Of a DNA stretch of 64,000 bases, positions 23,518 through 28,417 are shown in pieces. The notes beneath the pieces are model-generated. The model had not been told where the DNA came from, did no database searches, and worked only from the letters and a program-made list of their open reading frames with translations. The stretch is from Pseudoalteromonas shioyasakiensis (GTDB taxonomy: Bacteria; Pseudomonadota; Gammaproteobacteria; Enterobacterales; Alteromonadaceae), in the NCBI RefSeq assembly GCF_001550135.1, contig NZ_LRUE01000022.1:62001-126000 (forward strand). Reading direction: 5' to 3'. Position 1 is the stretch's first letter. Every line of letters starts with the position of its first letter. Both the position numbers and the translations under genes were made by a program.

Positions 23518-24381
23518 TTAGCTCATCGCTGATTGCAGTTTTTTCATCGCTGTTTTTTCTAGCTGACGAACACGCTCTGCTGAAACGTTATATTTCTCAG
23601 CAAGCTCTTGTAATGTTGCTTTATCGTCAGCTAACCAACGTGCACTTACGATGTCTTGAGAACGTTCATCAAGGGTTTTTAAGGCGCTGAATAAACGTGC
23701 ATGAGACTGTTCTTGCCATTGCTGCTCTTCGATATCATCAGCAAGGTCAGCACTGCCATCTGTTAAATACTGTACTGGCGAGTATGTGCTTGTCGGTGCG
23801 TCGTCATTGTCGTCGCCCGTTAAGTCAAAGCCCATATCTTGGCCACTCATACGTGATTCCATCTCACGTACTTCTTTTTCACTTACACCTAGCTCATTAG
23901 CAACTGTGCTAACCTCAGCTTGGTTAAACCAACCTAAACGTTTTTTGTTTTTACGCAGGTTGAAGAATAATTTACGTTGCGCTTTTGTAGTTGCAACTTT
24001 CACGATACGCCAGTTTTTCAGTACGTATTCATGAATTTCAGCTTTGATCCAGTGTACTGCGAATGAAACTAAGCGAACACCTACACTTGGGTCGAAACGT
24101 TTTACCGCTTTCATCAGACCGATGTTACCTTCCTGAATTAAATCAGCTTGCGGTAAGCCATAACCTGAATAGCTTTTCGCAATATGAGCAACAAAGCGTA
24201 GATGCGACATAATGAGTTGCTTCGCAGCTTCAAGATCACCTTCTTCCTGAAGACGTGTCGCCAACTGCTTTTCTTTCTCTGCATCAAGCATAGGAATAGT
24301 GCTAACCGCTTGAAGGTAGCCGTCCATACTTGCGCTCTGTTGACCTGCAGTAAGTGCCATTGCGTATAAATCTTTACTCAT
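23518..24381 (-). CDS. rpoH: RNA polymerase heat-shock sigma factor (sigma-32)
   Basis: RpoH directs RNA polymerase to chaperone and protease promoters after heat or envelope stress. The 287-residue protein has sigma region 1.2, region 2 with [18 protein letters not shown] and [10 protein letters not shown], the RpoH box [15 protein letters not shown] (the diagnostic of this sigma class), and region 4 with [26 protein letters not shown] ribosome binding site precedes the ATG by 6 bases. It follows ftsX in the usual ftsYEX-rpoH order but across 225 bp that contain a promoter and a perfect CIRCE operator, so its control looks unlike that of E. coli. Confidence 0.97.
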
Positions 24382-24414
24382 TTTTCACCTCAGTGATAAA
24401 CATTTGAAACCATC

Positions 24415-24441
24415 TTAGCACTCTTTAAGCGAGAGTGCTAA
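24415..24441. promoter_or_regulatory. CIRCE operator (HrcA binding site) at the rpoH promoter
   Basis: TTAGCACTC (24415-24423), 9 bases, then GAGTGCTAA (24433-24441): every base of the CIRCE consensus is present with the standard spacer. It lies 34 bp before the rpoH start, at the predicted transcription start, the usual position for repression by HrcA. In the mRNA it would also form a 9-bp hairpin in the leader. Confidence 0.88.
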
Positions 24442-24446
24442 CTTCA

Positions 24447-24475
24447 ATTAAAAACTTTTTTAAAGTTCAAATCAA
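24447..24475 (-). promoter_or_regulatory. Sigma-70-type promoter for rpoH
   Basis: On the - strand TTGATT (24470-24475), a 17-bp spacer and TTTAAT (24447-24452) predict a start near 24440, the first bases of the CIRCE operator. Confidence 0.55.
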
Positions 24476-24589
24476 GTGGTTTTTGCATCTATTTTTAGTC
24501 TACGCTAACACGCTGAATAAGCGATGAATTCTAGCTTGGAGTGATATTTTGATAAATTAACAGCGACTACTATTTATCGCTAAAAGAGC

Positions 24590-24613
24590 AGTGTAACAAT
24601 GAATTGTTACACT
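24590..24613 (-). repeat. 11-bp palindrome over the ftsX stop codon
   Basis: AGTGTAACAAT (24590-24600) pairs perfectly with 24603-24613 across two bases. The ftsX stop codon lies inside. It could be an ftsX terminator, but its T-tract is poor and the stem is AT-rich. Confidence 0.45.
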
Positions 24614-26320: not shown

Positions 26321-28417
26321 TTATGCGTCATCCTCGTCTTGGCTAAATAGTGCATCAATAAAGTCACTACTATTAAAGGTACGTAAATCATCAATACCTT
26401 CACCAACACCAATGTAACGAATTGGGATATTAAATTTATCTGCAACGGCGAAAATCACACCACCTTTGGCGGTACCATCTAGTTTAGATAAAGTAATGCC
26501 CGTTAAACCAACACACTCATTAAATAATTTAACTTGGCTAATTGCGTTTTGACCTGTACCTGCATCAATAGTTAGCATAACTTCATGTGGCGCATCTGGG
26601 TCAATTTTCTTCATTACACGGGCAATTTTTTCAAGCTCTTGCATTAGGTTATCTTTATTTTGCAAGCGACCTGCTGTATCGGCGATTAACACATCAACAT
26701 TACGAGCCTTTGCAGCCTGAAATGCATCAAATACCACTGACGCACTGTCTGCACCTGTATGCTGAGCAATCACTGGGATGCTATTACGCTCACCCCATAC
26801 TTGTAACTGCTCAACCGCTGCAGCGCGGAACGTATCACCCGCAGCAAGCATTACTGACTTACCTTCGTTTTGGAACTGCTTAGCTAATTTACCAATCGTG
26901 GTGGTTTTACCTACACCATTTACACCCACCATTAAGATAACAAATGGCTTTTTATCACCACTTACAACCAGCGGCTGCTCGGCGGTTTTAAGCATACTAG
27001 CCATTTCTTGCTTCATTAACTCATATAAAGCATCACCATCTTTTAATTGCTTACGATCAGCGGCATCGGTTAGGTTATCAATCAACTTCATTGTTGTATC
27101 AACACCTAAATCGGCTGTTAGTAATTGTGTTTCTAGTTCTTCAAATAACTCATCGTCAATTTTCTTACCACTAAAAATAGACGCAAAGCCTGAACCAATA
27201 TTAACGCGAGTTTTTAATAGACCTTTTTTAAGGCGTGCGAAGAAACCTTCTTTCTTTGGTTTTTCAGCAGCGGCTTGAGCAGCTTTCTCTTGCTCTACAC
27301 GCTCAGCTTCTGCTTGTTCTTCAGCAATGCGTTCTTGCTCTAAACGCTCCGCTTCTGCCTTTTCTGCAGCAATGCGTTCTTGCTCTAAGCGAGCTGCTTC
27401 CGCCTTTTCTGCAGCAATGCGTTCTTGCTCTAAACGATCCGCCTCTGCCTTCTCTGCAGCAATACGTTCTTGCTCTAGACGATCCGCTTCTGCTTTTTCT
27501 GCAGCAATGCGTTCTTGTTCTAAACGTTCCGATTCTGCCTTTTCTGCAGCAATGCGTTCTTGCTCTAAACGATCCGCCTCTGCCTTCTCTGCAGCAATAC
27601 GTTCTTGCTCTAGACGATCCGCTTCTGCTTTTTCTGCAGCAATGCGTTCTTGTTCTAAACGATCCGCCTCTGCCTTTTCTGCAGCAATGCGTTCTTGCTC
27701 TAGACGTTCAGCCTCTGCTTGTTCAGCAGCGATACGTTCTTGCTCCAAGCGAGCAGCTTCTGCCTTCTCTGCAGCAATGCGTTCTTGTTCTAAACGCTCC
27801 GCTTCTGCCTTTTCTGCCGCAATACGTTCTTGCTCTAGACGTTCTGCCTCGGCCTTCTGCGCAGCAACTTGCTCGGCTTCACGCTGCGCCTGTTCTGCTG
27901 CAGCACGCTCTTGCTCTAATTTCATTGCTGCTTCTTGCTCAGCAAGACGAGCTTGTTGTTCTTGACGTTGTTGTTCTGCCGCTTGCTGCTCTTGAGCTAA
28001 ACGTTCAGCTTCTGCTTGTTCTGCCGCAATGCGTTCTTGCTCTAAACGCTCAGCTTCTGCTTTTTCTGCCGCAATGCGTTCTTGCTCTAGACGCTCCGCC
28101 TCTGCCTTTTCTGCAGCGATACGCTCTTGCTCTAGACGCTCAGCCTCTGCGTTTTCTGCCGCAATGCGCTCTTGCTCTAAACGCTCCGCTTCTGTTTTTT
28201 CAGCAGCGATACGCTCTTGCTCTAGACGCTCAGCCTCTGCGTTTTCTGCCGCAATGCGCTCTTGCTCTAAACGCTCCGCTTCTGCTTTTTCGGCTTCAAT
28301 TCGCTGTTGTTCTTCTATTTGCTTCTGGTTATCAGCCTCTTTTGCTGCTTGCTCTGCTTGTTGCTTATCTGATTTGCCAAAACCAAACCAAGACAGGAAT
28401 TTACTTTTTTTTGCCAT
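26321..28417 (-). CDS. ftsY: Signal recognition particle receptor FtsY with expanded repeat N-domain
   Basis: FtsY is the SRP receptor GTPase that brings ribosomes making membrane proteins to the Sec translocon. The 698-residue protein is long (E. coli 497). Residues 1-45 include an amphipathic start (FLSWFGFGK). Residues 46-135 are six and 190-369 twelve copies of a 15-residue charged heptad-like unit ([15 protein letters not shown] and variants EADR, EAAR, ESER), with a degenerate Gln-rich link between them; the whole is a predicted long helix. The NG domain begins near 390 with [14 protein letters not shown] and carries [15 protein letters not shown] and [10 protein letters not shown]. The catalytic part is normal, so only linker length is unusual. 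It is divergent from rsmD, as in E. coli. Confidence 0.96.
27311..27850 (-). repeat. 45-bp tandem repeats in ftsY, block 2 (12 units)
   Basis: Twelve tandem in-frame copies of a 45-bp unit encode residues 190-369. A 125-bp stretch (27402-27526) recurs without change at 27537-27661, a shift of exactly three units, so part of the block was copied recently. A thirteenth partial copy follows. Confidence 0.92.
28013..28282 (-). repeat. 45-bp tandem repeats in ftsY, block 1 (6 units)
   Basis: Six tandem in-frame copies of the same 45-bp unit encode residues 46-135. They are separated from block 2 by 162 bp of diverged, Gln-rich coding sequence. Confidence 0.92.

Follow-up and report, generated by a model that had tools for sequence, protein, structure and literature searches.

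A perfect CIRCE operator at the predicted rpoH start of Pseudoalteromonas, apparently the single target of a divergent HrcA

Heat-shock control in bacteria is usually achieved in one of two ways, either by HrcA repression of chaperone genes or by sigma-32 activation. In the classical HrcA/CIRCE system of Bacillus subtilis, the operator (CIRCE, controlling inverted repeat of chaperone expression) is found at groESL and dnaK. The rpoH gene of Escherichia coli, which encodes sigma-32, is controlled through a sigma-E-driven promoter, an mRNA thermosensor and proteolysis. The HrcA/CIRCE regulons of beta-, gamma- and epsilon-proteobacteria were reportedly analysed by Permina and Gelfand, whose account may already include sites at rpoH. 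CIRCE before rpoH has been predicted in Geobacter sulfurreducens, where it is an entry in Table 8 of Rodionov et al. 2004 (PMC545781). Here we describe a stretch of 64,000 nucleotides from Pseudoalteromonas shioyasakiensis (assembly GCF_001550135.1, contig NZ_LRUE01000022.1, positions 62,001 to 126,000; the window, below), in which a perfect CIRCE lies just upstream of rpoH. Judging from comparative sequence analysis, we consider it very probable that this is a functional HrcA operator on the rpoH start, that it serves to repress rpoH, and that rpoH is apparently the sole target of HrcA in Pseudoalteromonas.

The arms of the operator, TTAGCACTC-N9-GAGTGCTAA, occupy positions 24415-24441 on the minus strand and form a perfect 9-9-9 inverted repeat with 0 mismatches to the CIRCE consensus; the pattern scan and conservation in the genus mark it as a predicted HrcA binding site. 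This is the sole CIRCE match in the window at ≤3 mismatches (shuffled windows average 0.02), and the sole CIRCE with 0-2 mismatches in the whole 4.8-Mb genome. Two extra places with 3 mismatches, each ≤250 bases from a contig start, are at chance level; our control, the motif read backwards, is matched twice on each strand of the same genome at 3 mismatches. The gene downstream, rpoH (23518-24381, minus strand), is an open reading frame for a heat-shock sigma factor sigma-32 of 287 amino acids, which scores 418.9 bits against the NCBIfam model rpoH_proteo (cut-off 323.1). An earlier, sequence-only reading of the window had proposed a perfect CIRCE before rpoH, and the scan bears this out; the place just upstream of rpoH stands as well, but the gap to the ATG is 33 nt rather than the 34 given there.

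The hexamers that had been named as the rpoH promoter, TTGATT-17-TTTAAT, are present on the minus strand, with the predicted -35 at 24475-24470 and the predicted -10 at 24452-24447, ending 5 nt upstream of the operator; both assignments come from reading the sequence and comparing promoters across the genus. This position predicts an rpoH start on the first operator bases, and CIRCE adjoins the predicted promoter of a heat-shock gene. The promoter is not listed by a generic, stricter sigma-70 scan, because the rule of that scan demands A at the second position of the -10. Of the 40 distinct promoters across the genus, 37 have their best -35 at -32 to -35 relative to the operator. The predicted leader (24382-24440, minus strand), deduced from the promoter position, would start inside the operator and carry it as a 5' hairpin, and GAGGTG at 24386-24391 (minus strand), read from the sequence and found in the genus consensus, probably serves rpoH as ribosome-binding site just ahead of its ATG.

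The site is conserved in close relatives and the genome has hrcA (below), so two of the three outcomes that the sequence-only reading would have counted as refutation do not apply. Exactly one CIRCE (≤1 mismatch) is found in 35 of 36 genus genomes, the window genome included, and in each of three more genus genomes from the order sample described below, for a total of 38/39. The exception, G016, carries hrcA and has no CIRCE at ≤1 mismatch; its assembly is rated 100% complete and has no RpoH match at E 1e-60, which reflects either an assembly gap or a loss. We read 34 of the 38 genus sites in context (all but those of G020, G022, G027 and G033), and all 34 precede rpoH, at a distance of 32-34 nt in the 30 that were measured; the sites of G279, G337, G401 and G002 precede rpoH too. 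Both arms are perfect in 38 of the 40 distinct genus promoters, and the remaining two (G017 and G029) have 1 mismatch each, at the same position and with the pairing uncompensated. The spacer and flanks drift across these promoters while the arms stay, and RpoH identity to the window drops to 77% within the genus. At 1 mismatch, none of 60 relatives has a match to the motif read backwards. The closest named record read at the locus is Pseudoalteromonas lipolytica UCD-48B (L149), whose longest matching pieces measure 3240 bases (94.9% identity) and 2053 bases (97.8%).

The genome also encodes the cognate repressor family, which the sequence-only reading had proposed to look for. There is one hrcA homologue, of 314 amino acids, flanked on one side by a divergent NAD kinase gene and on the other by grpE (neighbours named by NCBIfam). 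Residues 2-83 match residues 14-94 of the Thermotoga HrcA structure 1STZ (E 9e-12), a winged-helix DNA-binding domain, and an alignment of 23 HrcAs that spans canonical and divergent members shows an invariant DNA-binding core motif. The C-terminal domain, PF01628, is matched at residues 99-296 with 34.6 bits (cut-off 22.2). Pfam PF03444 is below its cut-off of 21, at 14.8 bits, as it is in the HrcA of another genus, g36 (18.5). By its sequence, then, the protein is a divergent HrcA homologue, and by the rule of the NCBIfam model TIGR00331 it is no equivalog; a score below this curated cut-off means that the link to rpoH may escape automatic annotation. PF01628 scores are intermediate (122-134 bits) in g28 and g36, two genera of the same family. 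Intact HrcAs of the genus have 311-316 amino acids compared to 328-348 in others, lengths that depend on the chosen start. HrcA is above the Pfam cut-off in 36/36 genus genomes and in 3/3 more from the order sample, and the hrcA frame is intact in the parsed genus loci, except in G029.

Beyond the genus, the operator and the repressor occur together. We examined a sample of 394 genomes from the order, with HrcA defined by the Pfam cut-off, CIRCE at ≤1 mismatch and the genomes matched by hand. HrcA is above cut-off in 47 of the 394; at E 0.001 there are 48, the 48th (G182) falling below cut-off. CIRCE is present in 46 of the 47 genomes with HrcA and in 0 of the 347 without (Fisher 1.6e-59, relatedness ignored), and the read-backwards control matches in 1/394 (G082). 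The one HrcA genome without such a site, G308, has a 2-mismatch site before rpoH. In 23 HrcA-less rpoH regions other than those of G250 and G299 (below), the best CIRCE match has 7-9 mismatches, and E. coli, among the control genomes, has no HrcA match. One relative in the family of the window genome, G229 (L283), has a second RpoH-like gene with 45% identity, and the best CIRCE match upstream of that gene has 6 mismatches. This co-occurrence, like the site itself, its conservation, its sole location and the presence of hrcA, is a direct observation.

The rpoH site is apparently the whole of the CIRCE regulon in this genome. The sequence-only reading had looked to groESL and dnaK for other copies, and none exists in the window genome at 0-2 mismatches: the regions upstream of groES, dnaK, grpE and hrcA contain no CIRCE, with best matches at 6-9 mismatches (6 upstream of hrcA, where 12/300 shuffles are as good). 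Similarly, no CIRCE is found upstream of groES in 24 genus genomes, in which the best matches have 7-9 mismatches and are no better than shuffles, and all 24 regions carry a sigma-32-type CTTGG-N2-N13/14-CCCCAT. Because the rpoH site is the sole CIRCE, HrcA apparently exerts no CIRCE control over groESL or dnaK here. An exact TTAGCACTC does occur upstream of the window-genome groES, and we rejected it as a decayed CIRCE and take it for chance; the exact arm is present in 3/24 genus groES regions, this one included, and a fourth region has it with 1 mismatch. Over its full length, CIRCE is matched in the window-genome region with 7 mismatches at best, which 17/100 shuffles equal.

Among relatives, the regulon takes two forms. 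The sole CIRCE is at rpoH in g28 and g36 (2/2 each, ≤2 mismatches). The same holds for four members of family f20 (≤1 mismatch), two of which have an extra 2-mismatch place. A groES site accompanies the rpoH site in G041 of family f7 and in G048 and G074 of family f14; other f7 genomes are classified in part for CIRCE position.

The hrcA gene itself has a sigma-32-like promoter upstream, which scores 11 of 13 in the window genome (2/100 shuffles as good). Among 38 genus loci, 35 score ≥10 of 13 and 31 score ≥11, a count without 9 of the 78 HrcA loci, of which 8 belong to genomes outside the genus and one, L245, to G009; HrcA was found in L245 by tblastn. If active, this promoter would complete a loop of negative feedback. 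In unstressed cells, HrcA made from the hrcA-grpE locus would bind CIRCE over the rpoH start and limit sigma-70-type transcription. Stress would inactivate HrcA and rpoH transcription would rise, the signal being either a shortage of GroEL, which the sequence-only reading took over from the classical system, or a direct effect of heat on HrcA; the divergence of the HrcA sensor makes this relieving signal the more doubtful. Sigma-32 would then raise HrcA from the sigma-32-type hrcA promoter and, by the canonical model, GroEL too, and these would shut rpoH off. We infer from sequence that HrcA binds the site and represses rpoH, as we do the inactivating signal and the activity of each promoter mentioned here.

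Several observations weigh against an HrcA-controlled rpoH. The rpoH promoter is sub-consensus and weak, and in G016, G002 and G011 the hrcA promoter is at best weak, with scores of 8-9. The sensor part of HrcA has diverged strongly, with 34.6 bits for PF01628 compared to 211 in a canonical relative, and the protein reaches 118.5 bits against TIGR00331, for which the cut-off is 197.2. In G029 (L242), hrcA is frameshifted after about residue 80, either through an error in sequencing or because the gene is being lost, yet the rpoH CIRCE is kept with 1 mismatch. The conservation of the arms is partly selected for, since the sites come mostly from a search at ≤1 mismatch, although in the genus this search missed only G016. 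The order sample is phylogenetically non-independent. Finally, two genomes of family f7 without HrcA, G250 (L280) and G299 (L281), have 2-mismatch sites before rpoH that 0/300 shuffles equal; these sites are likely remnants after HrcA loss, or HrcA may be present in these genomes but unseen.

The alternative that deserves most weight, which we hold to be possible while leaning against it, keeps the operator bound but makes the divergent HrcA independent of GroEL, so that it senses heat directly, or something else, and serves mostly to brake rpoH when induced by sigma-32. The DNA-binding core is kept while the C-terminal part is shorter and poorly conserved, the sigma-32-like promoter at hrcA would fit such a brake, and HrcA of Campylobacter jejuni has itself been reported as a thermosensor (PMC8533110); divergence alone, however, is no proof of a lost GroEL response. 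We think it very improbable that the inverted repeat works mainly in RNA, as a hairpin that opens the rpoH mRNA and affects stability or senses temperature, with no role as a protein site. The predicted transcript does open with a 10-bp hairpin, but both arms carry the exact CIRCE letters in 38 of the 40 genus promoters and the changes in the other two are uncompensated, the presence of CIRCE tracks HrcA across the order, and the distance to the ATG is variable among the 120 rpoH-CIRCE loci listed below. Moreover, operator, leader and the first 120 nt of coding sequence fold in an ordinary manner (z-score -0.41; 57/200 shuffles fold as well), and the RNA thermosensor that the sequence-only reading had allowed for in the leader finds no support in this fold.

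Slightly less credible again is a relic, in which the operator is left from an ancestral HrcA system and is without present effect. The divergence of HrcA, and the 2-mismatch sites retained by two HrcA-less genomes of another family, would suit a relic; against it, the arms are kept though RpoH identity within the genus falls to 77% and flanks and spacer drift, and hrcA frames are intact in the parsed genus loci save G029. A chance match is negligible given the shuffled-window mean of 0.02 at ≤3 mismatches and the empty read-backwards control in 60 relatives, and conservation refutes it. A functional HrcA operator at rpoH is the reading that we carry forward.

To define how widely this arrangement occurs, we scanned genome contigs for an exact CIRCE followed after 15-45 nt by an ATG and an RpoH motif. 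At least 120 stretches have CIRCE before rpoH, and RpoH is found by tblastn in all 120 listed; the titles listed include Rhodocyclaceae, Aromatoleum, Thauera, Nitrosomonas and Thiobacillus, as well as Polynucleobacter, Woeseiaceae, Haliea, Ketobacter and Kangiella. Taking RpoH identity >74% as the dividing line, 15 loci count as Pseudoalteromonas-like (10 titles shown) and 105 do not. The lineage-specific wiring suggested by the sequence-only reading is upheld in part: few members of the family have HrcA, but the architecture extends beyond this lineage, with at least 120 stretches and the 2004 prediction for Geobacter sulfurreducens. We counted CIRCEs (≤1 mismatch) in named genomes for 43 of the 120 loci, chosen by hand from 80 titles. 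All 10 titled Pseudoalteromonas have exactly one CIRCE, while the other 33 have two in 29 cases, one in 3 and three in 1 (Kangiella). Both sites were read in 8 of the 29 two-site genomes, one site in a ninth and the sole site in 3 others; in 8/8 genomes with both read, one site is at rpoH and one at groESL. Upstream of groES in four beta/gamma loci (L314, L316, L319 and L200), CIRCE directly follows a CTTGAAA...CCCTAT-like sequence, which suggests an overlap of sigma-32 and HrcA control there too.

In many of these loci, the operator overlaps a sigma-E-type promoter. GRAACY starts 16 or 17 nt upstream of the operator in 58 of the 105 listed loci that are not Pseudoalteromonas-like. Taking GGAACTT-N16-TCNNA, the sigma-E consensus, the end of the left arm of CIRCE together with the spacer would supply the TCNNA. 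At spacings of 15-17 that place this -10 on CIRCE bases 8-12, GGAACTT is matched at ≥5/7 bases in 79 of the 105 listed loci, compared to about 3.4 expected from shuffles, which preserve base composition alone; base 12 of CIRCE is A in 72 of these 79 loci, but in 4 of 14 groES CIRCEs. If other positions are allowed, 82 of the 120 listed loci reach 11 of 13 for a sigma-E-type promoter (6.2 expected). The sigma-E-type -10 is placed 6 bp further into the operator in g28 and g36 (4/4), the promoter is upstream of the operator in family f20 (4/4), and 3/5 of the f7 and f14 loci reach 11. Within Pseudoalteromonas, a score ≥11 is reached in 5/35 rows (34 genomes, with G029 twice) compared to 1.7 expected, and these five have the four lowest RpoH identities (77-79%) and one of 86%. 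Most of the genus has a sigma-70-type rpoH promoter rather than a sigma-E-type one. We make no claim for a sigma-E promoter in the window genome, in which there is a partial match of 10 of 13 and a sigma-70-type promoter instead.

We put at about even the chance of a broader model, in which the beta/gammaproteobacterial HrcA operator commonly overlaps the sigma-E -10 at rpoH and Pseudoalteromonas is a derived state. The overlap would make an AND gate on rpoH that needs two inputs, sigma-E for stress at the envelope and release of HrcA for folding stress in the cytoplasm. In the derived state, the groESL operator would have been lost, and the sigma-E promoter too in most species; with HrcA reduced to a single operator, its sensor part may have evolved freely while hrcA stayed under sigma-32, and the outcome would be HrcA as a dedicated feedback brake on sigma-32.

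Upstream of rpoH, two terminator-like hairpins (24561-24613, minus strand) lie at and after the end of ftsX and could insulate rpoH from upstream transcription. Farther away, ftsY (26321-28417, minus strand; TIGR00064, 369.2 bits) encodes a long N-terminal tandem repeat (27288-28291; 22.7 copies of a 45-bp unit).

In the titles and abstract openings of the open-access literature, we found no report of HrcA control of rpoH in Pseudoalteromonas or of CIRCE overlapping a sigma-E promoter. CIRCE before rpoH is of a known kind, given the Geobacter prediction; the single-target regulon, the divergent HrcA and the sigma-E overlap look new. The operator and the repressor family are those of the regulons of Permina and Gelfand. 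As in Bacillus subtilis, the operator sequence, its position at the transcription start and a winged-helix repressor are found, but the predicted target is the gene of an activator, sigma-32, rather than chaperone genes, and there is no CIRCE at hrcA itself. A sigma-E-type rpoH promoter is shared with E. coli by many beta/gamma CIRCE-rpoH loci and by a few in Pseudoalteromonas; unlike E. coli, which has no HrcA match, a repressor operator is present at or near the rpoH promoter. Since the pattern recurs in beta- and gammaproteobacteria and HrcA is scarce in the order (47/394), control of the E. coli type may be what remained after HrcA was lost. Most sampled relatives either are without the HrcA-CIRCE pair or apply it to chaperonin genes too, and the circuit proposed for Pseudoalteromonas is simple, with one operator and one target. 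In Geobacter sulfurreducens, a perfect CIRCE likewise stands upstream of rpoH (listed at -51 in PMC545781) in an hrcA-bearing genome; Pseudoalteromonas differs in that rpoH is the sole site and groESL is without CIRCE. Pseudoalteromonas would stack both layers of heat-shock control, its repressor being directed at the gene that encodes the activator.
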